The notes beneath the pieces were generated by a model. That model had not been told where the DNA came from, searched no databases, and worked only from the letters and a program-made list of their open reading frames with translations. Source: Promineifilum sp. (lineage in GTDB: Bacteria > Chloroflexota > Anaerolineae > Promineifilales > Promineifilaceae). Taken from it: a stretch of DNA of 40,778 nt. The DNA is taken from the NCBI GenBank assembly GCA_018058545.1, contig JAGOZU010000021.1, positions 1 to 40,778 of the forward strand. Direction: 5' to 3'. Positions 11,402 through 26,696 of the stretch are shown here, one piece after another (position 1 is the first letter of the stretch; each line of letters starts with the position of its first letter). Made by a program: the position numbers and the translations under genes.

Positions 11402-11513
11402 CGGGACGGAGTTTTTCAGGGCTTGTCCCATATTCCTATCATTGTTGATCCTCCGCGCCTGGGCTACAATTCCCACCCATTGGCCACTTGGCCTAACCAA
11501 TCGGGAAACAGGA

Positions 11514-15866: not shown

Positions 15867-16049
15867 ATGTTCGACGTTCTCATCCGTAACGGCCTCATCC
15901 ATGACGGCAACGGCAAGTCACCTTATACGGCCGACCTGGCCATCGCCAATGACACTATCGTCGAGATCGGCCGCATCGACGGCCGTGCGCGCCTGACGAT
16001 CGACGCCGATGGACTGGCCGTGTCGCCCGGCTTCATCAATATGATGTAG
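15867..16049 (+). pseudogene. N-acyl-D-amino-acid deacylase, 5' fragment (split by element)
   Basis: 60 codons from the ATG at 15867, with AGGAG eight bases upstream. MFDVLIRNGLIHDGNGKSP to LAVSPGFINMM is the N-terminal beta-sandwich and barrel entry of amidohydrolase-family D-aminoacylases. The stop TAG at 16047-16049 is made by the inserted element. The frame resumes exactly at 24249 after the second copy of the 10-bp repeat; together the two parts make 540 codons, the usual family length. The intact enzyme would cleave N-acyl-D-amino acids in the cytoplasm. Confidence 0.92.
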
Positions 16050-17595
16050 AATCAATACTAATTAAATCGGATGTAGTGCCGAGACCGCAACTAATCCTAA
16101 CCTTGAGGCTGCCGCTATCATCCCTAATCAGTTGCCCCCGGCAATCCAAGGCCTCAAATAATTCCCGTTTATTCTCTGCCGTTCCCCCTTCCCTAATCCG
16201 GCTTCTTGCTTGCCGGGCAATGGCCTTGATTTCGTCTTTCATCATCGGGCTTATGTCAGTATTGACTATCAAGGCCTCAAGCTCATCCCGCCGCCGTTCC
16301 AAGGCCCCTTGCAGCTTGCGGGTATCATTGATTTCCCGCTTGATGGCCGAGGCAATTACATCATCATCGGCATCCCCAAAGCCCTTGATGAGCCGGGCTA
16401 TCTTGCCCTCGGCCTTATCCAGCATCTTGGCCACGTCACCTAATTCCAGTTGGAACGGGCCAATATCCCTTTGGGCTTGGGCGGCCATATCCTCAATCAC
16501 CTCATCAAGCCGGGCATCGTTTTCTATAATCCCGACAAGCCAAGCCCATGCCCTGGCATCAATTTCATCCGCGTTAAGCCGCCCCAATGTGCAGCCCGCC
16601 TTGGCCCCGTCATGGCGGGCGCGTGAGCATCGATAATATCGATATATTCGCCCTTTCCACCCCTTAACCGATGAGCCATTGATAGCCCCGCCGCAAGTGC
16701 AAAGCATCCTTGCCGACATTAGGTAACATTCGCCCGGCCGATGCCGCCTTGCCCTTGCCTTATTATGAAGCCTTTGCACTTGAGCCGCTTGCCATGTTTC
16801 ACTATCAATAATGGCAAGCTCCGGGAAATGCGCCTTGATGCCGTCGAAAGAAAATTCCCCGATATAGGCCCGCCTGTCTATGATGCTTTCCGTTATGGTT
16901 GAGGCAAGCCATACCTTGCCCGCCCCCATTGCCCGGCCGGGTGTAGGGATGCCCTCATCGGATAGTATCCGGGCAATCGCGTTAAGGGTTAAGGGCTTGC
17001 CGCCATAGCGGCCCGTGTAAAGGTTGAAAATGCGCCTTACGGTTGCGGCCTCGGCCTCATCAATGACTAGATGAGCTTCCCGGCTTTTGCCCACCTTGCG
17101 ATAGCCGAAAGGGGCCCAAGCCCCTACCCATTTCCCCGCCCGTGCCTTTTCCCTCTTGCCCCTCATTGAGCGTTCCTTGATTGCCGCCCGCTCCTGGCTT
17201 GCCGCAAGCCCCTTGAAGAAGGTTATAAAGATGCTTGCCATATCGTTGCGGATAGGGCCGCTTTCGCAATCGTGAAGCGTCACCCCATGCCGGGCAAAAT
17301 GCTCAATGGTTGTTAGCAAGCGGCTTGCCTCATCTTCGGGCGGCCGTGATAGCCTGTCAATACGATAGACAATAACGGCTTGCACCTGCCGGGCTTCAAT
17401 CAACCGTATCAATTCCTTGCCGCCTTCCCGCTCATCAAGGCGGGTGGCCCCGCTTATATCATCCTGAAATTCGGCAATGATGTTGAACCCCTTGCGCTCT
17501 GCATAGGCCCGACATTCCTTGACTTGAGAGCCGAGGCTATAGCCCCTGTCTTTTTGTTCGCTAGTGCTTACCCTTGCATATACTGCCGCGTTCAT
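16036..17595 (-). CDS. large serine recombinase (integrase)
   Basis: 519 residues. The N-terminal resolvase domain has nucleophile Ser10 in YARVSTSEQ and the conserved YRIDRLSR and ERAAIKERSMRGK helices. A recombinase domain (APFGYRKV to RRAYIGEF) follows, then a zinc ribbon with C299-T-C301 and later Cys residues (YYRCSR, GCTLGR), and a long coiled coil (about residues 385-455). This is the layout of phiC31/Bxb1-type integrases, which join attP and attB without sequence homology beyond a 2-bp core. Its last codons cross the attL core, and the stop lies in host sequence. A stable hairpin precedes the start codon. Confidence 0.95.
   Translation of the reverse strand: MNAAVYARVSTSEQKDRGYSLGSQVKECRAYAERKGFNIIAEFQDDISGATRLDEREGGKELIRLIEARQVQAVIVYRIDRLSRPPEDEASRLLTTIEHFARHGVTLHDCESGPIRNDMASIFITFFKGLAASQERAAIKERSMRGKREKARAGKWVGAWAPFGYRKVGKSREAHLVIDEAEAATVRRIFNLYTGRYGGKPLTLNAIARILSDEGIPTPGRAMGAGKVWLASTITESIIDRRAYIGEFSFDGIKAHFPELAIIDSETWQAAQVQRLHNKARARRHRPGECYLMSARMLCTCGGAINGSSVKGWKGRIYRYYRCSRARHDGAKAGCTLGRLNADEIDARAWAWLVGIIENDARLDEVIEDMAAQAQRDIGPFQLELGDVAKMLDKAEGKIARLIKGFGDADDDVIASAIKREINDTRKLQGALERRRDELEALIVNTDISPMMKDEIKAIARQARSRIREGGTAENKRELFEALDCRGQLIRDDSGSLKVRISCGLGTTSDLISIDSTSY
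16038..16047. repeat. attL core, 10-bp direct repeat AATATGATGT
   Basis: Identical to 24249-24258. It lies at the exact point where the deacylase frame breaks and at the end of the serine recombinase gene. Codons AAT-ATG-ATG-T are shared, so precise excision by recombination between the copies restores the host gene. Confidence 0.88.
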
Positions 17596-17612
17596 TGTCT
17601 TAATCCCGCTTG

Positions 17613-17644
17613 CCGGGCGGGATGAGTATCATCATCCCACCCGG
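17613..17644 (-). promoter_or_regulatory. 13-bp RNA hairpin before the integrase start
   Basis: On the plus strand CCGGGCGGGATGA (17613-17625) faces TCATCCCACCCGG (17632-17644) around a 6-nt loop, with one mismatch that becomes a G-U pair in the minus-strand RNA, giving 13 continuous pairs. It ends 18 nt before the integrase ATG and has no T tract, so translational control, or a protein site, is more likely than termination. Confidence 0.5.
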
Positions 17645-17653
17645 CCTAATTCT

Positions 17654-17803
17654 CTAGTGTGACGGTTGCATGGCACTATCACGCTTGCGCTTTCTGTAGG
17701 CTTGTTGCTGGCAAGCCCGATTGCAATAAAGCCGCTTGGGGCCGCCATGCATCCGCTTGCCGCAATTCGCACATAGCTTCACATGGTATCCCCGGCCGCT
17801 CAT
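17654..17803 (-). CDS. 49-residue zinc-ribbon protein
   Basis: Reads MSGRGYHVKLCANCGKRMHG and on to LYCNRACQQQAYRKRKRD before its stop. Two CxxC/CxxxC pairs (CANC and CNRAC) followed by a basic helix make a treble-clef or zinc-ribbon fold typical of small phage and plasmid proteins. The ATG overlaps the TGA of the membrane protein gene (ATGA), so the two are translationally coupled. It may bind DNA or RNA; its place just before the integrase suggests an accessory or regulatory role, which is inference. Confidence 0.7.
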   Translation of the reverse strand: MSGRGYHVKLCANCGKRMHGGPKRLYCNRACQQQAYRKRKRDSAMQPSH

Positions 17804-18651
17804 AAAGGGCGGCCATCCTTATGCCCATTGGCCAAGGGCGGGTTAGCGACGGCAACCGCCTCATAGCCCTCATCCTCATCCGGCAGGTATTGAGCCAAGG
17901 CCGCCGCCAAATCTTCAAGGCTTGCCCGCCGCGCTTGGCCCTCGGCAATGTCGGCTATGCCGTCGCCATTCAAATCCAAGAGTTGAGGGGCTTGCCGGGT
18001 TAGGGCGGCAATTTGGGCATCCGTTAGGTTGAGTTGACGGCCTACAACGGGCGGCAATTGTTGCCACGTCATTTGCCTAATGACGGCCTTCATTTGCGGG
18101 CTTGCCATCACTTCAAGGCGGGCATCATGCTTAATCCGCGTGAAGCGTTCTTGAAGCTCTGCCTCATCATCGGCCCGCTTGGCATCCGGGTTGAGCCTTA
18201 GCATCACGTAGAATTGAATGCCGACAATCAAGGCACTAACGGGCAAGCCATATCGTACCCAAGAGGCCACGAAAGCGGGCAAATCGCCCCCATGCTCAAC
18301 CGCAAAGGATGAGATAAGGTTGACGGCCGCAAAGGCCGCCCAAGTGATTTCTAGGGCCATTGCGGCAGGTTTTTGCCGCGCTTTGAGTTGATGGGTTGCC
18401 AGTAGAACGGCCGTTGAAACGGCAAAAAGCTCAACAAGCGCAACCCCTGCAACCCGGATAATTGAGAATACATCACCCCCGGCCGTGTTTAGTCCAGTGT
18501 AAGCACGGGTGATGGCAACCGCGTGAATGGCCGTTACAATCGCAAGAGCCAAGAGTAAAGCCCATCCAAGCCAGCTTGCGGCCGTTCCTATCGTTCCTCT
18601 GGTAGCATCCCCGCTCAAATCAAAGGTATCATTCTCATCATTGGTAAACAT
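17800..18651 (-). CDS. membrane protein of unknown function with C-terminal soluble tail
   Basis: 283 residues from the ATG at 18651 (AAAGGA nine bases upstream). Four hydrophobic helices are visible: LGWALLLALAIVTAIHAVAI, VFSIIRVAGVALVELFAVST, AMALEITWAAFAAVNLISSF and YGLPVSALIVGIQFYVML. The remaining cytoplasmic tail includes LLDLNGDGIADIAEG, a calcium EF-hand or dockerin-like DxNxDGxxD motif. Similar four-helix proteins occur in actinobacterial and Chloroflexota plasmids. Function is unknown; it may act at the membrane in transfer or exclusion. Confidence 0.72.
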   Translation of the reverse strand: MFTNDENDTFDLSGDATRGTIGTAASWLGWALLLALAIVTAIHAVAITRAYTGLNTAGGDVFSIIRVAGVALVELFAVSTAVLLATHQLKARQKPAAMALEITWAAFAAVNLISSFAVEHGGDLPAFVASWVRYGLPVSALIVGIQFYVMLRLNPDAKRADDEAELQERFTRIKHDARLEVMASPQMKAVIRQMTWQQLPPVVGRQLNLTDAQIAALTRQAPQLLDLNGDGIADIAEGQARRASLEDLAAALAQYLPDEDEGYEAVAVANPPLANGHKDGRPL

Positions 18652-18670
18652 CGTTATAATCCTTTTAGGT

Positions 18671-18749
18671 GGGCCGCCCCCTTTCCTGCTACGGGCCGAG
18701 GGGCGGCATTGCTTACGGGCCGTTCTCATCCGGCAGGGTGGGGCGGCCC
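18671..18749. repeat. 10-bp GC-rich inverted repeat upstream of membrane protein gene
   Basis: GGGCCGCCCC (18671-18680) and GGGGCGGCCC (18740-18749) are perfect inverted copies 59 bp apart. Each is next to a copy of CCCTNTCCTGCTA in direct orientation. The leader of the membrane protein gene could therefore fold into a large structure. Confidence 0.45.
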
Positions 18750-18811
18750 GGCCCTATCCTGCTATTGCTCTGCTTTTGATTGCTTTCCGATAATCAACCC
18801 CCTTGGAAACG

Positions 18812-18845
18812 AAAAAACGCTTACCCTTTTGCCGGGTAAGCGTTT
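18812..18845 (-). terminator. intrinsic terminator of the tyrosine recombinase gene
   Basis: AAACGCTTACCC (18815-18826) and GGGTAAGCGTTT (18834-18845) form a perfect 12-bp stem with a 7-nt loop. On the minus strand the stem is followed by TTTTTT, the classic rho-independent form. It lies about 140 bp past the recombinase stop and separates that transcript from the membrane-protein and integrase genes. Confidence 0.85.
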
Positions 18846-18986
18846 GGTGGCTAAAATTCGCTTAGCTCCACTGCCGCTTACCTCGGCTTTGGGGTTAGGG
18901 CTAGTTAGGTGTTTCCAGCACCTTTCTGGCCCGTTTTCTTTCTGTTACTGACAGTATAACCCATCGGCCGCCCGTTGCAAATATCA

Positions 18987-20003
18987 TTATCCCTTATCCC
19001 GTTCGGATATTTCATTATCGGCAATATAGCGGATTGCCATCGCCGGGCTTGCCCATCCGAACCATTCCATAAGTTCCTTGACGCTATAGCCCTTGGCCGC
19101 CATATCGGTTGCACAATAATGGCGGCAATCATGAGCCGATAGGCCGTCAATCCCTATGGCCTTGCCCAAATCCCTAACCCGCCGCGTCAAGGTGAGCCGG
19201 TTGAGCGTGCTATCAATCAGGCTGCCATCCTTGCGGCTTGCCTTCAAGAGCGGCCCGGCTTGTGGGGCATCCGGCAGGTAAGCAAGCAAGGCCTTGAGCG
19301 TTCGGGCTGTTAGCCGATGGGCCGTTTCCTTATCCACCTTGGGCCGATAGAAGCGCAATTCGGCCGCCGTTATATCAAAGTTGCCGAGGGTAAGGGCGGC
19401 GATTTCCCCCGCCCGCAAGCCATGCTCAAGCAAGAGGGCCATCATGAGGGCATCCCGCCGCCCTTGGGGGCTATCGGGTTGAGCCGTCAACTGCCGGGCT
19501 TGCTCTGCCGACAGGTTGACGGCCTCGGCCTTCTTGGCCCCCACCTGCCGGGCTTGCGGCCGCTTCTCATCAACCCGCTTGCCCTCTTTCCGTGAATACC
19601 CTTTGACCGTCTGGATAAGGGCCAAATCTTGGGCATCAATCGCTCCGGCCTTGGCCGCCAATTGGGCATAGGTTTTTACGGTTGACAAGCGCACATTGGC
19701 CGAGGAAACGGCATAGCCTTGCTTGAGTTGCCATGCTACAAATCCCTCAACAATTCCCCATGTGATACCCTGCCAGCAATCCGGGTTGCCCTGGAAGTCG
19801 CAATCCACCTCAAGCCCGGCATCTTCAAGATAGCGGCCGAATAAGGCCAAATCTTGCGCTTGACGGCTTAAGGTGTTTTCGGCCCGCTTTTCCCGATAGC
19901 GGGCAAATACGCTCTTGCTTGCGGCCATGTTGGCAATCATACCTGCTTTTTGAAGGATGCTTAGTGAAGCGGGCGGGTTATGGGTTAGGGCTTGCATTGT
20001 CAT
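18987..20003 (-). CDS. tyrosine recombinase (XerC/D-like)
   Basis: 338 residues from the ATG at 20003, chosen for AAGGA seven bases upstream; a further ATG lies at 20027. The SAM-like N-terminal core-binding domain (SVFARYREKRAENTL onward) precedes the catalytic domain with R197 (EHGLRAGEIAAL), H291 and R294 (SAHDCRHYCA), W317 replacing the second His (FGWASPAMA) and nucleophile Y326 (IRYI). All catalytic positions are filled. It may resolve multimers of the circular element or act on a second site; the att structure of the element fits the serine recombinase better. Confidence 0.93.
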   Translation of the reverse strand: MTMQALTHNPPASLSILQKAGMIANMAASKSVFARYREKRAENTLSRQAQDLALFGRYLEDAGLEVDCDFQGNPDCWQGITWGIVEGFVAWQLKQGYAVSSANVRLSTVKTYAQLAAKAGAIDAQDLALIQTVKGYSRKEGKRVDEKRPQARQVGAKKAEAVNLSAEQARQLTAQPDSPQGRRDALMMALLLEHGLRAGEIAALTLGNFDITAAELRFYRPKVDKETAHRLTARTLKALLAYLPDAPQAGPLLKASRKDGSLIDSTLNRLTLTRRVRDLGKAIGIDGLSAHDCRHYCATDMAAKGYSVKELMEWFGWASPAMAIRYIADNEISERDKG

Positions 20004-20048
20004 GGGATTATCCTTATTAGTGTACATTTGTATAAATAATGTATACTC

Positions 20049-20077
20049 ATTATAACCTCTTGCAAGGCAGATTGCAA
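20049..20077 (-). promoter_or_regulatory. strong sigma70-like promoter of the tyrosine recombinase
   Basis: On the minus strand TTGCAA (20072-20077), a 17-bp spacer and a perfect TATAAT (20049-20054). Between it and the ATG lie TATACA, TTTATACA and TGTACA, overlapping inverted words that could be an operator. Confidence 0.7.
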
Positions 20078-20508
20078 GCCTTTGAAGGCATCAATATTGG
20101 CCTTTTTTAGGTTTCACTATGTCCCTGCCGCCCTCGTGTCGCCGGCGGGTTAGGGGCTATCATCCCGGCGGCCGTTTCTTTTTTTCGTGTACCGTTTCGG
20201 TCGGCGGCCGCCGGTCATGGGGGGTGTACGAGGTGTCTCGACCCCAAAAAAGAAAAACGGCACCTTCATGTTGGCTTCATGTTTTAGAGAGCGCATACGA
20301 GGGGTAGGCCGCCAAGAGCATGAAACGCGGCCGCCGCAACGCGGCAATCATCCGGCAATGCCACCTCTCAAAATGGCGGTCGTATCGTTGCCGGTCGCTT
20401 TCTTTTTTTTCGTGTACCGTTTCGGTCGGCGGCCGCCGGGCGATGGTCGCTAAATCGCCTGGGCCTATAAAATTCCTATAAAAATAAAAGAAAATAATAG
20501 AATCGGGA
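20078..20508. other. gene-free repeat region inside the element
   Basis: No convincing gene on either strand. It holds two 40-bp direct repeats (20175-20214 and 20399-20439), a near-inverted A-rich copy around 20239-20258 and a T-rich tail (20460-20505) with CCTATAAAA twice. Such an arrangement could be an origin, a partition site or a structured terminator region for the 84-residue gene that ends at 20509. Confidence 0.55.
20175..20439. repeat. two 40-bp direct repeats containing a 12-bp palindrome
   Basis: Copies at 20175-20214 and 20399-20439 are identical apart from the length of the T run (7 or 8). Each runs TTTC-T(n)-CGTGTACCGTTTCGGT and ends in the palindrome CGGCGGCCGCCG. Spacing start to start is 224 bp. 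Confidence 0.88.
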
Positions 20509-20763
20509 TTATGTATCCCCCTCTTGCGGCTCATCACCCCAAGTCATCTGTATCACTTCACCATCGCCCGGCGGGCAATCTTCGCTATAGCAAATGATGA
20601 TGAGCTGGTAATGTTCTTGAAGTTCATTCACCTCATCGGCCGTGTAATCCCGCCCTTTGCTGTGATATACCCCGGCTTGGTAGCTCATGGTGAGAAGTGG
20701 CTTCATTTCATCGGGTGGGGCGGCTTTCTTTTCCAGTTGGGTAAGCCTACTTCGTAGTGTCAT
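20509..20763 (-). CDS. 84-residue protein of unknown function
   Basis: From the ATG at 20763 it reads MTLRSRLTQLEKKAAPPDEM, a short amphipathic helix followed by an acidic domain. It overlaps the upstream HTH gene by 17 nt, suggesting coupling. Segment GRDYTADEVNELQEHY looks like a folded core. No family recognised. Confidence 0.55.
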   Translation of the reverse strand: MTLRSRLTQLEKKAAPPDEMKPLLTMSYQAGVYHSKGRDYTADEVNELQEHYQLIIICYSEDCPPGDGEVIQMTWGDEPQEGDT

Positions 20764-21124
20764 TGAATCGCCTCTCAAGCTCTGCCACCCGTTCGGATAA
20801 TTCGACATTTTCCCGCAACTTGAGGGCATGGCCTAGCAGGGCATCGGCCGCCCGCAAGCGGATAGCCGCCCCGGCCGTGGTGGGGGATGCTATGATTTCC
20901 TCAATTGCCGTTAGTGAAGCGTCAACCATTGCCGCAAGCCTAACGGCCGCCAAATGGATTGCCCCATCGCTCCCTGCCTTCAAGGCGGCTTGAAACTCAT
21001 TCAAGCCAAGCCATCTTTGAAGCGTCTTGCGGCCTATGCCGCATTCAAGGGCGGCGGCCGTGATGCTGCGCCCTTCCAAGAGCTTCTCAACTGCCTTGGA
21101 TTGTTTTGCGGTTAGTTTTTCCAT
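20747..21124 (-). CDS. HTH protein, homeodomain-like (terminase-small-subunit style)
   Basis: 125 residues from the ATG at 21124 with AGGGG upstream. LTAKQSKAVEKLLEGRSITA then AALECGIGRKTLQRWL is a helix-turn-helix of the type found in phage terminase small subunits and transposase N-termini. The C-terminal half is helical with a likely coiled coil (RENVELSERVAELERRF). No terminase large subunit accompanies it, so a regulatory or replication role is as likely as packaging. It is the first gene after the 28-bp inverted repeat. Confidence 0.7.
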   Translation of the reverse strand: MEKLTAKQSKAVEKLLEGRSITAAALECGIGRKTLQRWLGLNEFQAALKAGSDGAIHLAAVRLAAMVDASLTAIEEIIASPTTAGAAIRLRAADALLGHALKLRENVELSERVAELERRFNDTTK

Positions 21125-21162
21125 AATTTTCCCCTGCGTCATTTTGAGCCATTATGCACAAA

Positions 21163-21298
21163 AGTATATTTGGTTTAATTGGTTTAAATGGGGTTAATTG
21201 CGACGGTTGCCGGGCCGCCCATGATACATTTTCTTGCTGCGGTATGCCTGGAAGGGGCTGGCATTGTTCGCATTTAAACCAATTAAACCAAATATACT
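21163..21298. repeat. perfect 28-bp inverted repeat with 80-bp loop, origin or operator candidate
   Basis: Arms 21163-21190 and 21271-21298 are perfect reverse complements; a partly matching CACAAAA flank extends both with a 2-base difference. The left arm contains TTTGGTTTAATTGGTTTAAA, i.e. GGTTTAA twice, and a third variant GGGTTAATTG follows at 21191-21200. The site fills the gap between the RepA-like gene and the next gene. Iteron-like motifs next to a replication helicase suggest a replication origin; a repressor operator is the alternative. Confidence 0.9.
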
Positions 21299-21312
21299 AT
21301 TTTGTGTATTGA

Positions 21313-22506
21313 CTACCTGAATTCTGCCTTCACCCGCCAAATGTCGGGCCGCTTGCCCATTTGGGTTGATGGCTGCTCATCCCGGCAGATGTAGCCGTCG
21401 ACTTCAAGCCGTGCCAGTTGGCGGCCGATTGTCGCTTCCGTCACCTTGCGGATTTCTGCCAGTTGCTTAGCCGTCATGCCTTCCCCCTCTGTGTCATTCT
21501 CTAGCATCGCCTCAAGCACCTTGCGGCCCGCCCGTATTTTCTCTAGCTCGTAGGCATCCCCGACATACACCCACCCGGCCCCTTCCTCGGCCTGTCTGAG
21601 TGTCATATTGCGGATGTCCAAATCCCTGCTTTCGGCGTGTAGGATGGCTTCACGTTCCCCCGGCTTGCGCTCAAGGATGAGGCCCATATCATAGGCCCCT
21701 CGGATGGCCGAGGCCCCCCGAATGGTGGCAAAAATATCATCCGGGTTGGCTGCCTTGCCCGTATGATGCACTATGACAATAGCGATGTCCTTATTGTGGG
21801 CGATATAGGCCAAGGCGTTTACGAGGCTGCCCATTGCGCTATTGTCGCGCTCATCCGTGCGACCGCTCATGGCGGCGATGAGGGTATCAATGATGATTAG
21901 GTCGTAGCCCTCGGCGTAGCCGTTGACCTCCACGGCCCCCGGCCCGATGCCGCCTTGCCCGTCGTCAAGATATGGGATAGTGAATAAAACGGCCGCGCTT
22001 TCGGGTTGCCAGTTGATGAGCTTGGCCCGCGCTTGCACCCGCCGCGCCCCGTCTTCAAGCGCATAATATAGCACCCTGGCTTTTGTAGTTTCCCGGCCGA
22101 GGAAATCGGCCCCCGTATCGATGCACATTGCCAGTTGCAGCCCAAGCCAGCTTTTGCCGCTCTTTGGCCGCCCGCCCAAGATGCCAAGATGCCCCTTGGC
22201 AATCAAGCCATCTACCAAATACTCTTGCGGCTTGAATTGGTGGGCCAGTAAATCGCTCATGGGCCTTGGCAGGGATGAGGGCGGCAATTGCCCGTTTGTC
22301 GGGCCGCTGCCGTTTGTAGTTGGAAGTGCCCACGGGCCGCTGCTGTCGCCTTCCCGCCACGGGTGCAAAATAATGCGGCCGTCCTTTTCCCGTCGTTCAA
22401 CCCATTTGCCAAATTTGGCAATGTAATAGTCGGGCGTGATGTCCAGAATTTCAATTGGGATGCCAATCCAGTTTTCTGCAACGTCGCCGATTTTGAATGA
22501 TGGCAT
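21313..22506 (-). CDS. RepA-like AAA ATPase/helicase
   Basis: 397 residues from the ATG at 22506, which shares one base with the upstream stop (TGATG) and follows GGGGGTGGA. RecA-fold P-loop near residues 112-119 (GRPKSGKS, K118), Walker B in YDLIIIDTLIAA, sensor-like IVIVHHTGKA and RGASAIRGAYD. This matches the hexameric RepA/RadA-like ATPases used by plasmids and prophage replication modules. A C-terminal winged helix (MTAKQLAEIRKVTEATIGRQ) follows. It probably unwinds or loads at the element's origin. Confidence 0.88.
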   Translation of the reverse strand: MPSFKIGDVAENWIGIPIEILDITPDYYIAKFGKWVERREKDGRIILHPWREGDSSGPWALPTTNGSGPTNGQLPPSSLPRPMSDLLAHQFKPQEYLVDGLIAKGHLGILGGRPKSGKSWLGLQLAMCIDTGADFLGRETTKARVLYYALEDGARRVQARAKLINWQPESAAVLFTIPYLDDGQGGIGPGAVEVNGYAEGYDLIIIDTLIAAMSGRTDERDNSAMGSLVNALAYIAHNKDIAIVIVHHTGKAANPDDIFATIRGASAIRGAYDMGLILERKPGEREAILHAESRDLDIRNMTLRQAEEGAGWVYVGDAYELEKIRAGRKVLEAMLENDTEGEGMTAKQLAEIRKVTEATIGRQLARLEVDGYICRDEQPSTQMGKRPDIWRVKAEFR

Positions 22507-22931
22507 CAATCCACCCCCTGAAAAAGCCGCCCTTGGGTGGGCGTTTGCGGCCGATTCCATTCATTGAGGGGAAGGAACCATTGCGCCCCATACCCCCGAT
22601 TAAAGCCCTTGCCGCGTTCCCATACGGTTGCCATACTTGCCCGATAAACCCGGCCGCTTTCGGCATCCGTCACCTCAACCCATTTGGCCCCGGCCGCCTC
22701 GGCATCCCGCAATGTGGATACATCAAAGGCGATGGCGGGCGGCTTTCGCAGAAAATGGGCCGAGGCCATCACCCGCTTGAAGAAGCAATCGCCCTTGACG
22801 GCCCCAACCGTCTTTGAGCCTACGTAGATGGGGATGCCCCCGGCCCGCGTTCTTGTGGTATACTGTAAGCGGCTTGGCCGTCCGCCTATGCCGCCCGTCC
22901 GGTTGCCGCCGGGCTTTTCATTTTCTGTCAT
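22506..22931 (-). CDS. 141-residue protein of unknown function
   Basis: Begins MTENEKPGGNRTGG and is predicted soluble. Segments SKTVGAVKGDCFFKRV and KWVEVTDAESGRVYRASMAT suggest a small beta-rich domain, but I do not recognise a family. GGAGGGG seven bases before the ATG is a strong ribosome binding site. It overlaps the small upstream ORF and touches the RepA-like gene (TGATG), so the three are one translational unit. Confidence 0.65.
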   Translation of the reverse strand: MTENEKPGGNRTGGIGGRPSRLQYTTRTRAGGIPIYVGSKTVGAVKGDCFFKRVMASAHFLRKPPAIAFDVSTLRDAEAAGAKWVEVTDAESGRVYRASMATVWERGKGFNRGYGAQWFLPLNEWNRPQTPTQGRLFQGVD

Positions 22932-23079
22932 GTTGCCCCTCCTGGCCGTCTTTCGGCCGCTCTGATATTCGCCCCCAATCAGGCGACAGGATAACGGCCA
23001 AGGCCTTTGCCAATAGCCGCCGCTCTTGGGTATCCCGTTCCTCGGCCGTTAACTTTCGGCCATCATCCCCTATTGTCAT
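22918..23079 (-). CDS. 53-residue small protein
   Basis: Reads MTIGDDGRKLTAEERDTQER and continues with RRLLAKALAVILSPDWGRIS before its stop. Its ATG overlaps the TGA of the RHH-like gene (ATGA), and its end overlaps the next start, which is the main evidence that it is real. Charged and helical; no family recognised. Confidence 0.6.
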   Translation of the reverse strand: MTIGDDGRKLTAEERDTQERRLLAKALAVILSPDWGRISERPKDGQEGQHDRK

Positions 23080-23279
23080 TGGCCCGCCCCCCCGGCATGA
23101 GCCGGTTGCCCAACGGCTAACAACCCCTCTTTTTCCAGTTGTTGCCGGATGAGCATGGCGGCTTGCTGGCGGGCATCCCGCCGCTCTCTGAGTGCCAGCA
23201 TCCGCAAAGCCTCACGCTCATCGGCCGCCAGCGTAATGGTTATCCTTCTGAAATTTTGGGTTAAAAACAAATCGGCCAT
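23076..23279 (-). CDS. small RHH-like DNA-binding protein
   Basis: 67 residues. FRRITITLAADEREALRMLA followed by a basic helix with R-x-x-A spacing resembles a ribbon-helix-helix (CopG/Arc) protein: one beta strand and two helices. Such proteins regulate plasmid copy number or toxin genes. The start codon lies inside an 11-bp perfect inverted repeat (23270-23298), consistent with autoregulation or hairpin control. Confidence 0.65.
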   Translation of the reverse strand: MADLFLTQNFRRITITLAADEREALRMLALRERRDARQQAAMLIRQQLEKEGLLAVGQPAHAGGAGQ

Positions 23280-23298
23280 GACAGTATCATGGCCGATT
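23270..23298. promoter_or_regulatory. 11-bp inverted repeat over the RHH-like start codon
   Basis: AATCGGCCATG (23270-23280) and CATGGCCGATT (23288-23298) are perfect inverted copies with a 7-bp loop. The ATG of the 67-residue gene lies in one arm. In RNA the start would be sequestered; as DNA it could be the operator for the encoded RHH-like protein. Confidence 0.6.
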
Positions 23299-23300
23299 CA

Positions 23301-23355
23301 AGGGGTAGATTGGAAGTAACGAAAGGGGTAGGTTAAGGGGTAGTCTTAGGGGTAG
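23301..23355. repeat. four AGGGGTAG words, 12-23 bp apart
   Basis: AGGGGTAG occurs at 23301, 23324, 23336 and 23348. The last two overlap the end of the upstream gene, encoding part of its TPKTTP tail. Could be iterons or chance low-complexity. Confidence 0.4.
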
Positions 23356-24094
23356 CCTCTTTTGTCGGTAGTAGCTCGTGTTTTCTCATATGGTTAAAAT
23401 CTTTTCTGATAGTTTCAATTGACACTGTTTCCACTTCGGCAATTTTCGCTTGGGTTAGTCCTTTGGGAATGTAGTCTTTTATGATTTTATCCCATCGTTC
23501 CAAGCGTGATGGCCTAATCCCAAGCCGCCTTGCACGTATTCCCAAGGCGTTTTCATCCATTTCAATGGCGGCCCTGTCTGGATGCTCTTGAGGCCGCTTA
23601 ATCGCCTCATCCTCATCCTTGGCCGCGCTATCCCGCTTTGCCGTTACAAGCCCGCCCCACTCTTGTTGTAAGCGCATATCTAACTGTTGGGCTATGTGTG
23701 TGAAGTCCGGGAGTTCGCTGTAAAGCTCTCGCTGCCATTCTGGTAGTTGCATGACTGCCTTCTTGTAAGCCGCAAGCCGCTCGCTGTTTTGGCCGTCGTA
23801 TGCCGGTATCAGCTTGAGGCTGTACCCCCACTGACCGCCTGTCATCGTCGGCGATAAAACAACATCATAGAACACCCACCCATCCAAAAAAAATCTGTAT
23901 TTGCGCGTATCCCCGATTTCCGTAATAGTATAGTCAAAGTGAGCCAATGAGCCGACGGCCCATAGTATGACCCGTTCCATCGCCCATTTCGCTTCATTTA
24001 AATTCAGTGTTTTCAATGCTTCGTACACAACACACCCCATACAAAAAGCCGCCTGAATTGTCACAGACGGCCTTGAGTGTGCTATACTACTCAT
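23333..24094 (-). CDS. first gene of the element, C-terminal HTH, unknown function
   Basis: 253 residues from the ATG at 24094; upstream alternatives are ATG 24109 and TTG 24127. The N-terminal two-thirds (AKWAMERVILWAVGSLAHFD, then GQWGYSLKLIPAY) is a mixed domain I do not recognise. The C-terminus RPSRLERWDKIIKDYIPKGL then TQAKIAEVETVSIETIRKD is a clear helix-turn-helix. An extended -10 promoter lies upstream, so it is probably the master regulator or replication initiator of the operon. Confidence 0.75.
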   Translation of the reverse strand: MSSIAHSRPSVTIQAAFCMGCVVYEALKTLNLNEAKWAMERVILWAVGSLAHFDYTITEIGDTRKYRFFLDGWVFYDVVLSPTMTGGQWGYSLKLIPAYDGQNSERLAAYKKAVMQLPEWQRELYSELPDFTHIAQQLDMRLQQEWGGLVTAKRDSAAKDEDEAIKRPQEHPDRAAIEMDENALGIRARRLGIRPSRLERWDKIIKDYIPKGLTQAKIAEVETVSIETIRKDFNHMRKHELLPTKEATPKTTP

Positions 24095-24120
24095 GTCAGC
24101 CGCCCGCATCGGTTGACCAT

Positions 24121-24171
24121 GCCCCAAAATGCTTCTACATTGTTGGGGCCTTTCTTTCCTTGATTATATCA
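24121..24171 (-). promoter_or_regulatory. extended -10 promoter and leader of the element's operon
   Basis: On the minus strand TGATATAAT (24163-24171) is an extended -10. CCCCAA and TTGGGG (24122-24127 and 24142-24147) form a 6-bp inverted repeat in the leader. Transcription from here would run through the regulatory and RepA-like genes. Confidence 0.6.
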
Positions 24172-24248
24172 CGTTGCCGCCCCCCGCTCTGCCAGTGGGA
24201 ATTCCCCCACAAACAAGATAAGCCTATTGGTATTAGTTTGGGCTTGTA

Positions 24249-24258
24249 AATATGATGT
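24249..24258. repeat. attR core, 10-bp direct repeat AATATGATGT
   Basis: Second copy of the att core. Reading AAT-ATG-ATG-TGC-TGG restores N-M-M-C-W and joins the two deacylase halves in frame. Confidence 0.88.
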
Positions 24259-25700
24259 GCTGGGCCAACGAGTCGCTCATCCACGACGGCCGCTCGCAAT
24301 CCGACATCCGCCAGGGGGTGACGCTGGAAATATTGGGCGAGGGCTGGTCGATGGGGCCGCTCAACGACGAACTCAAGGCTTACACGAAGGATCTGCAAGG
24401 TGACATCCGCTACGATATCGAGTGGACAACCCTGCGTGAGTACCTGGAGTATCTCGTCCGGCGCGGCGTATCGACCAACGTGGCCTCGTTCGTCGGCGCG
24501 GGTGGCGTGCGGGCCAACGTACTGGGCTTCGCCGACCGGCGGCCGACGCCCGACGAGCTGGCGCGGATGCAGACGCTCGTCCGGCAGGCGATGGCTGAGG
24601 GCGCCGTCGGCCTGTCGGCGGCGCTCATCTATGCCCCCGACAGCTACGCCAACACGGACGAACTGATCGCCCTGGCCACGGCCACGGCCGAATACGACGG
24701 CCTGTTCGCCGCCCATCTGCGCAGCGAGGGCGAGACGTTCCTGGAGGCGCTGGATGAGTTCCTGACCATCGTGGTCACGTCCGGCATCCGCGGCGAAATC
24801 TATCACCTGAAGGCATCGGGGCGACGAAACTGGCCCAAGCTGGAGAAGGCGATCGCCCGTGTCGAGGAGGCGCGGGCCGCGGGGCTGCTCGTCACGGCCG
24901 ACATGTATACCTATCACGCCTCGGCCACCGGGCTGGACGCGATGATGCCCGGCTGGGTGCAGGAGGGCGGCCATGACGCCTGGGTGGAGCGGCTGCGCGA
25001 TCCGGCCGTGCGCGAGCGATTGAAGCGCGAGATCGCCCTGCCCAGCGCCGATTGGGAGAACTCCTACCACGAGGCGGGCGACGCATCGAAAGTGCTGTGC
25101 GTTAGCTTCAGGAACGACGCGCTCAAGCCGCTGACCGGCAAGTCATTGGGCGAGATCGCCGCCCTGCGGGGGACCGACCCCATCGAGACGGCGATGGACC
25201 TGGTCATCGAAGACGACAGCCGCGTCGGCTGCGTCTACTTCACCATGTCGGAAGAGAACGTGCGGCGCGAGATCGGCCTGCCGTGGGTCAGCTTCTGCTC
25301 CGACTCGGCCTCGCTCGCGCCGGAGGGCGTCTTCCTGCGCTCCAATCCCCATCCCCGCGCCTACGGCAGCTTCGCCCGACTGCTGGGCAAGTACGCACGC
25401 GACGAAAAGTTGCTCTCGCTGGAGGAGGCGGTGCGGCGGCTGTCGGCGCTCCCGGCCGATAATCTGCGACTCGACCGGCGCGGCCGCCTGCTGCCCGGCC
25501 ATTTCGCCGACGTAGTCATCTTCGACCCGGAGACGATTCAGGATCACGCCACCTTCGATCGGCCGCATCAGTACGCCACCGGCGTGCGCGATGTGCTGGT
25601 CAACGGCGTGGCCGTCCTGCGCGACGGCGAGCACACGGGAGCCATGCCGGGGCGAGTGGTCGATGGGCCGGGTAGCGCAACTAGCAAGCGTGCCGGTTAA
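24249..25700 (+). pseudogene. N-acyl-D-amino-acid deacylase, 3' fragment
   Basis: About 480 codons after the att core: CWANESLIHDGRSQSDIRQG, then VTLEILGEGWSMGPLN, the family's characteristic entry, with metal and substrate motifs in LFAAHLRSEGETFLEAL and EIYHLKASGRRNWPKL and a C-terminal LLPGHFADVVIFDPETI. This subfamily has a W-x-x-E type segment where classical D-aminoacylases carry HxH. There is no ribosome binding site before the ATG at 24252, so it is probably silent while the element is inserted and functional after excision. Confidence 0.92.
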
Positions 25701-25730
25701 AAAGCCAACGCTATCATGTAATTCCAGATT

Positions 25731-26696
25731 ATGGACAATACATTTATGCACCCCATGCACTACCAGGGTCGGAACGACAACGCGCGTATGCTCGCCCTGA
25801 CGCGCGAACATCCTGAGGGTCACGCTCACGTGGCTGACCTGCCGTATCGCCTTTGTTCGTGGGCTTTCGATAACCCTGCCAACGTTGGGTTATGGGAGGA
25901 TGAACGCGGCCGTCTGTTGGCTTGGGCGGTTCTGCAGCCGCCGTTTTGGACGTTCGAATACGGGCTTCACACGGATGCGCCGCCTGACGCCCTCGCCGTC
26001 ATCCTGAACTGGGGTGATGCGCAGGCTCGAACGCTTCTTGATACACCTTATGGCCGTCCGGCGTGGTTCGTTCCTGTACCAGAGGGGAATGAAGGGCGGC
26101 GGCAGACCTTGGAGGCTTTCGGCTACCGGCCGCAGGATACAGTGGAAAATCCATGGTCTCAAGTCACGCTGGCACTAACCGCGGACGTCGTCCTGCCGCC
26201 TTGCCCAGTCAGGGACGGCTACCGGCTCCGGCAACTACGAGGCGAAGCAGAAGTTCCAGCTTACGTTTCCCTGCACCGCGCCGTATTCCATAGCACCAAC
26301 ATGACCGAAGGGTGGCGGCATAAAATCATCCATCATCCCGCCTACGAGCCGGAACTTGACCTGGTTGTCGAGGCTCAATCCGGCGAGCTGGCGGCCTTTT
26401 GCATCGCCTGGCTCATGGACCAGCCGATAATGGTCGATGGTCGGTCATCGCGTGTCGGTCAGATCGAACCGATTGGCGTTCGCGAGGAAAACCGTCGGCA
26501 CGGTTTGGCGTGGGCTATCCTGGCCGAGACTGTTCGCCGATTGCGCCGGATGGGCGCAGAAACAGTGCTTGTGCAGACCGACAACTATCGCGATCGCGCC
26601 TATAGCTTTTATCAGGTTGCCGGCTTTCGTATCGTCGAGCATATCACCCTCTATCGCAAGGATTTCGCACCGGCGGATTGGAAGAGCGATGAGTAA
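25731..26696 (+). CDS. GNAT-family N-acetyltransferase, two-domain
   Basis: 321 residues, about twice the length of a single GNAT domain. The C-terminal half has the acetyl-CoA loop in IGVREENRRHGLAWAILAE and the end motif RAYSFYQVAGFRIVEHITLY. The N-terminal half (HVADLPYRLCSWAFDNPANV) looks like a degenerate GNAT copy, as in many tandem GNAT proteins. Acceptor unknown. The ribosome binding site is weak; ATG codons at 25746 and 25755 are alternatives. Confidence 0.85.
   Translation: MDNTFMHPMHYQGRNDNARMLALTREHPEGHAHVADLPYRLCSWAFDNPANVGLWEDERGRLLAWAVLQPPFWTFEYGLHTDAPPDALAVILNWGDAQARTLLDTPYGRPAWFVPVPEGNEGRRQTLEAFGYRPQDTVENPWSQVTLALTADVVLPPCPVRDGYRLRQLRGEAEVPAYVSLHRAVFHSTNMTEGWRHKIIHHPAYEPELDLVVEAQSGELAAFCIAWLMDQPIMVDGRSSRVGQIEPIGVREENRRHGLAWAILAETVRRLRRMGAETVLVQTDNYRDRAYSFYQVAGFRIVEHITLYRKDFAPADWKSDE

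Follow-up and report, generated by a model that had tools for sequence, protein, structure and literature searches.

Durrant et al. 2022 (PMC10083194) described mobile elements that carry their own integrase beside the junction and disrupt target genes, the attachment (att) sites being deduced by comparing sites that hold the insert with sites that lack it; 44.5% of these elements could not be classified. In Bacillus subtilis the active prophage SPbeta is inserted in the coding gene spsM by a serine recombinase, and its excision restores the frame (PMC4191935). The satellite PLE1 is moved by a large serine recombinase as well, and its excision depends on a phage protein (PMC6002521). In the integration-dependent immunity of mycobacteriophages the frame of a repressor crosses attP, and integration by a tyrosine integrase shortens the protein by 20–35 residues at a stop in attL (PMC8092301). 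In SV1, attP is in the non-coding DNA that follows int downstream (PMC4068962), and an attP inside the gene of a serine integrase is not described in the portions of the literature searched here.

A related situation was found in a stretch of 40,778 nucleotides from Promineifilum sp. (the window). Positions 16038–24248 very probably represent an integrative, plasmid-like mobile element inserted by its own large serine integrase via attP × attB recombination inside an amidohydrolase gene. It is assigned to the integrative elements of the large-serine-recombinase kind because of its precise ends, the empty sites in relatives, the terminal integrase, the gene content and the existence of related elements; the lack of a close relative of its integrase, the failure to see a circular form and the draft state of the host genome (185 contigs) were counted against this reading. 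As in the elements of Durrant et al. 2022, the integrase lies beside the junction, the target gene is disrupted and the att sites follow from occupied and empty sites. Unlike there, the integrase has no relative above 41% identity in the genomes searched, and amidohydrolases are not among the targets named in the sections of PMC10083194 used here. With SPbeta the element shares the serine recombinase, the coding target and the restored frame, but it comprises 8.2 kb without matched virion genes, and neither a SprB-like factor nor a sign of regulated excision was identified. Precise insertion into a gene is a common kind of insertion for serine-integrase elements; what the window contributes is an element of defined limits, for which attP and attB were inferred and seven empty sites are available, together with a new integrase whose target is predicted.

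Boundaries of the insertion

Scanning both strands of the window gave two occurrences of the 10-bp core AATATGATGT and no more (Table 1). Removal of 16038–24248 (8,211 bp) in silico yields a single amidohydrolase frame of 540 aa starting at 15867; precise excision is thus predicted to restore the host frame. The first-pass annotation had reported a serine-recombinase element situated precisely in a deacylase-like gene, with a 10-bp repeat around an 8.2-kb block and rejoining of the gene upon excision, and the integrase domains, the empty sites and the restored frame bear this out. Its limits run from the stop codon of int (16036) to the last base of the second repeat (24258), and the junction does coincide with the end of the recombinase gene, as int ends at 16036 within the left junction.

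The 10-bp repeat by itself is no proof of the ends because 13 10-mers are shared between 15886–16186 and 22000–26000. A long frame is regained with the AATATGATGT pair only (571 codons from stop to stop, compared to 138–281 for the other 12); when 3000 deletions were placed at random within these ranges, 7 reached 540 codons. The decisive evidence for insertion is the empty site in relatives rather than the repeat. In palindrome analysis neither the predicted attP (14 of 29 matches) nor the predicted attB (13 of 29) had an evident centre. Attachment at a tRNA or tmRNA gene was discarded as a possibility because neither gene type is present in the window, in which Rfam and tRNA scans gave zero matches.

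Table 1 Features of the element and of the interrupted gene (positions in the window)
Feature	Position	Strand	Evidence or remark
N-terminal fragment of split amidohydrolase/N-acyl-D-amino-acid deacylase-like gene, ending ..NMM-stop inside the element	15867..16049	+	Rejoined frame, comparison with relatives
Large serine integrase (int), 519 aa	16036..17595	-	Resolvase, Recombinase and Zn_ribbon_recom domains; phrog_95 E 3e-86
Left 10-bp core AATATGATGT (attL)	16038..16047		Sequence repeat
Putative zinc-finger protein (by eye), 49 aa, directly upstream of int	17654..17803	-	No Pfam match
Membrane protein, 309 aa, N-terminal half hydrophobic by eye	17800..18729	-	No Pfam family above cut-off; 64% identical homologue in L098
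Tyrosine recombinase, 346 aa	18987..20027	-	PF00589
Perfect 36-bp direct repeat, upstream of tyrosine recombinase	20179-20214 and 20404-20439		Repeat
106-aa protein	20509..20829	-	32% match (E 0.006) in L102, next gene after the TerS-like one
Small-terminase-like (TerS-like) HTH protein, 131 aa	20747..21142	-	phrog_2538 E 9e-8
44-nt AT-rich inverted repeat, next to RepA-like gene	21147-21190 / 21271-21314		Repeat
RepA-like AAA_25 ATPase, 415 aa	21313..22560	-	PF13481 E 1e-34
141-aa protein, shared with many loci of the class	22506..22931	-	32/396 genomes
Ribbon-helix-helix-like (RHH) protein, 67 aa	23076..23279	-	Weak Pfam/PHROG matches; 48% homologue in L139
264-aa protein, C-terminal HTH-like region, first gene of the element	23333..24127	-	Weak Pfam/PHROG matches; homologues in L094 and L139
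Right 10-bp core AATATGATGT (attR)	24249..24258		Sequence repeat
C-terminal fragment of split amidohydrolase gene, 482 aa	24252..25700	+	PF07969

The interrupted gene and its empty sites

Relatives with the deacylase gene but without the insert, for which the first-pass annotation had suggested a search, were found in all seven same-genus genomes examined (G001–G007). There the protein is 84–88% identical, the alignments pass through the junction without a gap, and the empty-site gene of G006 contains an identical AATATGATGT. One of the eight genomes of the genus examined carries the insert, and the suggested search for other genomes with an insert at the same codon found it in 0/7 congeners. 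Among the best 80 of 364 loci in a scan of genome_contigs, a choice biased toward good matches, all 80 matches span about 1.6 kb and cover residues 1–4 to 528–540, and therefore leave no space for a large insert.

In the genome of the element itself, the two pieces of the split gene are the sole matches at E 1e-30. The dN/dS values of the split gene versus the congeners are 0.110–0.181, those among the seven intact copies 0.080–0.199. By this measure the split host gene shows no decay, and the insertion is for that reason probably recent. The name D-aminoacylase, given to the gene previously, holds as a family label only because the subfamily lacks the HxH motif found at that place in more distant homologues. 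Selection through the host enzyme was also considered as a reason for the maintenance of the insertion; the evidence speaks neither for nor against it.

Genes and repeats of the element

The main genes of the element are open frames (Table 1). PF00239, PF07508 and PF13408 are the Pfam domains above cut-off in the integrase. The RepA-like ATPase, the probable replication helicase, has a 32% match to an ATPase of an 8.3-kb plasmid of Caldicellulosiruptor bescii and no confirmed relative in viral_contigs. In fold, the 141-aa protein weakly resembles the D212 nuclease (E 1.6e-3); it has one relative in viral_contigs and none in phages. The AT-rich inverted repeat is a candidate replication origin and the direct repeat a candidate recombination site or iteron. 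Candidate directionality factors are the RHH protein and the zinc-finger-like protein of 49 aa; a Cys pattern similar to that of the latter was seen by eye in the protein at the equivalent place in the related locus L098. A small excisionase-like HTH protein was recognised by eye in six related loci (the one tested is HTH_17 by Pfam), and two of the six, used as queries, gave no match in the window.

Among the nine element proteins scanned, no virion gene (capsid, portal, large terminase; Pfam and PHROGs) was matched apart from the small-terminase-like one, nor was a relaxase or FtsK-type transfer protein (Pfam, PHROGs, NCBIfam), in agreement with the earlier observation that no capsid or transfer gene was seen. 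Defence genes were likewise not detected for these nine proteins at E 0.01.

According to the proposed course, the element's own large serine integrase would have recombined its attP with an attB in the amidohydrolase gene. In its integrated state the element splits the host gene, of which no second copy was found in the genome. Assisted by one of the two candidate directionality factors, the element may be excised as a circle, which would restore the gene. The circle may replicate by means of the AAA_25 protein, its multimers would probably be resolved by the tyrosine recombinase, and transfer could be passive or rely on a helper, either a phage or a conjugative element. In assembled contigs no circular junction or excised copy was found.

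Related elements

Related genomes contain elements whose gene sets overlap with that of the present element but whose serine integrases differ, and the present element extends a lineage of compact elements with serine integrases in uncultured bacteria of the Anaerolineae type. L098, from the same genus, shares the 141-aa protein (41%), the TerS-like protein (53%) and the membrane protein (64%), and its serine integrase is cut by the contig end. In L139 the tyrosine recombinase (54%), the HTH protein (52%), the RHH protein (48%), RepA (51%) and the serine integrase (28%) were matched, in L094 RepA (51%) and the serine integrase (28%). Across the 198 relatives searched, matches to the integrase reach at most 41% identity, every phage and plasmid record matched stays below 60%, and pattern searches for close relatives in viral_contigs and genome_contigs gave no confirmed hit. 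Because the integrase has no close relative, the same element was not seen at any second place.

The locus L041 adjoins a gene fragment with a Mg_chelatase domain, and in PMC10083194 a Mg chelatase/ATP-dependent protease gene is often the target. A simple two-ended insertion of L041 is unsupported because the rest of the gene was not found in its genome (G030): the genome search gave the fragment only, and no C-terminal ComM motif occurs in 36 kb around L041. The flank of L043 was considered as a candidate circular junction; in the three genomes searched, no further match to its 217 bp was obtained. Delimiting the related elements by repeats alone failed, as 11–14-bp matches are frequent; the repeat scan, restricted to at least 11 bp, for that reason missed the 10-bp core of the window itself.

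Alternative explanations

A phage satellite packaged by a helper phage appears rather unlikely but would account for a gene content in which an integrase, regulators, a replication ATPase and a small-terminase-like protein occur but structural genes do not. The TerS-like protein has homologues in L098, L102 and L050, and PLE1 is a known satellite with a large serine recombinase (PMC6002521). However, the identity of TerS is weak (the PHROG match in Table 1; best fold match 2ao9, E 4e-3, TM 0.46) and the protein could be a regulator. In contrast to PLE1, no helper phage is known for the element, and homologues of RepA are also matched in 23 plasmid records, though 867 phage records match too.

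The first-pass annotation had compared the locus with reversible, regulated elements such as skin, SPbeta and the comK prophage. Excision under some condition would then bring the deacylase-like enzyme back; SPbeta, which relies on a large serine recombinase, is the precedent with spsM (PMC4191935). The in-frame reconstitution of the host gene and its lack of decay fit this idea, but any precise excision restores a frame, a recent insertion explains the lack of decay equally well, and serine integrases are often described as disrupting coding genes (PMC8092301, PMC10083194). With the insert confined to one of the eight genomes, no circular form seen and no directionality factor identified among the element proteins, the comparison lacks support; such a reversible switch could exist but is very improbable.

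Least probable is a degenerate prophage that has lost its virion genes: prophages often carry serine integrases (50.7% of elements, PMC10083194) and several element proteins have PHROG matches, but much of the compact gene set is common to the related loci, its main genes are open, and no virion structural family occurs among the matches listed (25 of 83 PHROGs) for 65 ORFs of eight loci with the 141-aa protein.

The integrase frame across the crossover core

The most unexpected feature of the integrative element is the frame of int, which runs through the crossover core and takes its stop codon from host DNA, the TGA (16036–16038) being completed by host bases. The protein comprises 519 aa in the integrated state and 545 aa in the predicted circle; the difference of 26 residues compares with 20–35 in the mycobacteriophages (PMC8092301). 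There, a repressor is shortened and the integrase is a tyrosine integrase, whereas here the change, predicted from sequence, concerns the serine integrase itself and its effect is hypothetical.

It may be speculated, with little confidence, that integration edits the integrase. The attP core of the clade would lie within the 3' end of int, the free circle would encode one C-terminus and each insertion another one set by the host sequence, and the tail might influence synapsis or binding of the directionality factor. If this were true, Int itself would report the integration state and could bias the direction of recombination, as a serine-integrase counterpart of integration-dependent immunity. 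An int without its own stop before the crossover core would provide a simple test of integration changing the properties of the integrase. The same layout of int across the core was found in four further elements with an identifiable host gene; Pfam tests of the neighbour-gene names of related elements and the aligned junctions of L046 and G187 agreed with it.

Insertion into a formerly whole gene

The source draft genome comprises 3.6 Mb in 185 contigs and is 97.9 % complete, and the window represents one entire contig. Deletion of the element in silico yields a single 540-aa protein. The 10-bp core AATATGATGT occurs in the window only at the two ends of the element. Taken alone this repeat is unremarkable, because 13 words of 10 bases are common to both sides of the junction; of these the core alone rebuilds a long frame, and in a random-deletion control a long frame arose in 7 of 3000 cases.

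The first-pass annotation had proposed a precise insertion splitting one gene and a check for the insert-free gene in relatives. Both the 540-aa frame and the congeners (seven genomes of the same genus) bear this out, since the gene is uninterrupted in all seven, with 84–88 % identity and a junction that aligns gap-free. At the level of sequence, comparison with relatives thus settles that the element entered a formerly whole gene. The core at the site is identical in one congener and one base off, at the third position of the N codon, in five; the remaining one, G003, is more divergent, and its match has one TGA flagged inside by the search table, yet a 534-aa open frame covers the gene. In a scan of genome contigs the match crossed the site over about 1.6 kb in all 80 loci considered, which are the best 80 of 364 ranked by score and hence biased toward intact genes; the six best matches show 86–88 % identity. 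Beyond the genus, homologues were found in 14 of the other genomes searched, mostly with full or nearly full frames and with a few partial matches. A second copy in the own genome was not detected at E 1e-30.

Features of the element and its insertion site in the window
Feature	Position	Strand	Remark
N-terminal gene fragment	15867–16049	+	amidohydrolase-like
Serine integrase (Int)	16036–17595	−	519 aa integrated
Element	16038–24248		8,211 bp
Core, first copy	16038–16047		AATATGATGT
Direct repeat, 36 bp	20179–20214, 20404–20439		perfect; just upstream of tyrosine recombinase gene; candidate site of recombination or replication
Inverted repeat, 44 nt, AT-rich	21147–21314		between TerS-like and RepA-like genes; 86 % complementary, 80 nt between arms
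Core, second copy	24249–24258		AATATGATGT
C-terminal gene fragment	24252–25700	+	PF07969 (Pfam)

The target gene

The earlier label 'D-aminoacylase' holds as far as the amidohydrolase family is concerned, to which the C-terminal fragment belongs; we take the rejoined protein to be a member of the group commonly called N-acyl-D-amino-acid deacylase. The insertion point lies within the block IN-M-[ML]-[CS]-W-A of the host protein. By pattern this block was recovered in 67 of the 80 best loci (51 INMLSWA, 9 INMMCWA) and missed in 13. Among 12 homologues inspected the region was visible in nine, with INVMSHA and INMLSWS once each and H-x-H in seven. As the INM[LM][SC]WA block stands where these seven show H-x-H, deacylase substrate and activity are only presumed for the subfamily. 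This subfamily, seen in the C-terminal fragment and the 80 homologue loci (L141–L220), is carried by records of many bacterial phyla, whereas more distant homologues show HxH.

The host gene is split in integrated cells. Its sequence shows no decay; dN/dS is 0.110–0.181 against the seven congeners and 0.080–0.199 among those seven (515 codons). A recent insertion accounts for the absent decay, and frequent excision would account for it as well.

Gene content and mode of action

The main genes of the element, all on the minus strand, encode in order a 264-aa HTH-like, an RHH-like and a 141-aa protein, a RepA-like AAA_25 protein, a TerS-like HTH protein, a 106-aa protein, a tyrosine recombinase, a membrane protein, a 49-aa zinc-finger-like protein and the serine integrase. 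The 49-aa and a 53-aa frame are without Pfam match. Among the nine element proteins scanned, none matched a capsid, portal, large terminase, relaxase or FtsK-type family, in agreement with the first-pass annotation, which had seen no capsid or transfer gene, and PADLOC detected no defence genes.

Judged by this gene content, Int together with a directionality factor would integrate and excise the element, the circle would replicate in plasmid fashion, the tyrosine recombinase may resolve multimers and transfer would proceed with a helper. Such an ordinary cycle of integration, excision, replication and transfer is the most likely working of the element. The reversible gene-disrupting switch suggested before is unlikely. 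Insertion into coding genes with short cores has been described for serine integrases: one study reports three attB sites with cores of 5–8 bp, every one inside an open reading frame (PMC8092301), and another groups target genes by disruption (PMC10083194). Restoration of the frame thus does not point to a switch. The element belongs to this already known kind of insertion.

The integrase frame across the junction

In the window the stop codon TGA of Int takes one base from the core and two from the host DNA, and in the predicted circle the frame runs 26 residues further to 545 aa. The related loci L041 and L043 share 89.9 % identity over 5.7 kb as far as the 3′ end of the integrase gene and then diverge; in either locus the gene stays open across the divergence point, and the tails differ (585 and 600 aa as mechanical frames). 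L041 adjoins a fragment of a Mg_chelatase-domain gene (PF01078, E 2e-74), whose homology to the intact gene of G010, the sole homologue aligned, ends within about 5 bp of the divergence point; a search for the remainder of this gene at L041 found nothing. At L046 homology to short-chain dehydrogenases (PF00106) starts from 11473, before the integrase stop at 11498–11500, and therefore about nine codons and the stop lie on the host side. At L048 the final four codons and the stop fall in a stretch whose homologue is an intact methyltransferase gene, and in G187 (L035) they lie opposite a methyltransferase frame resembling that of L048. The serine integrases of these two genomes (G169 and G187) both end in methyltransferase genes, apparently at the same position.

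Thus, the stop lies on the host side in five of five elements with an identifiable host gene (window, L041, L046, L048, G187); for the last three, homology places the junction with a precision of about 15 bp. The count leaves out L043, whose 217-bp flank had no other match in three genomes searched, L044, which overlaps a BNR-repeat gene at the 3′ end of the latter, L045, L047, L094, L098, L103, L139 and all other integrase hits; as resolved cases alone were counted, the layout should be read as a lead, not as a frequency. An integrase borrowing its stop codon merits a simple assay.

Related elements

Homologues of Int at E 1e-30 are present in 20 of 198 genomes including the own one, elsewhere with at most 41 % identity, and in none of the seven congeners; a more distant serine integrase exists in congener G002, at L098. 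With the own genome counted, 32 of 396 class members encode the 141-aa protein (E 1e-5) and 19 of 396 encode RepA (E 1e-20), and the tyrosine recombinase has homologues in 28 of 198 genomes (E 1e-30). L098 has the 141-aa protein (41 %), the TerS-like protein (53 %) and the membrane protein (64 %) in common with the element. It also has a protein whose Cys pattern looks zinc-finger-like by eye, and a different serine integrase, which is interrupted by the contig end. L139 shares the tyrosine recombinase (54 %), HTH (52 %), RHH (48 %), RepA (51 %) and serine integrase (28 %); its intervening genes encode a hydrophobic protein (by eye, without Pfam match) and a T5orf172/MUG113-domain protein.

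Eight loci with the 141-aa protein list 88 ORFs, of which 65 were scanned. The PHROGs matched most often were those of integrases, primases and helicases, and two matches were to terminase-small. Virion structural families were absent from the 25 PHROGs listed of 83 and from the 25 Pfam families listed of 45; the other families could still include some.

The own genome encodes a second RepA-like AAA_25 protein (L093, contig C144, 10396–11520; about 44–47 % identity), around which no further element genes matched within 20 kb. A 79.6-kb viral contig (L125, IMGVR_UViG_3300009085_000003) also encodes a 141-aa-protein homologue, close to a frame that is at least 2504 codons long. In congener G001 a 4.5-kb stretch, which includes a distant (31 %) membrane-protein homologue, occurs twice with 98.5 % identity (L137, C3, 6022–10504; L138, C1, 6227–10709), on contigs of 4.0 Mb and 40.8 kb.
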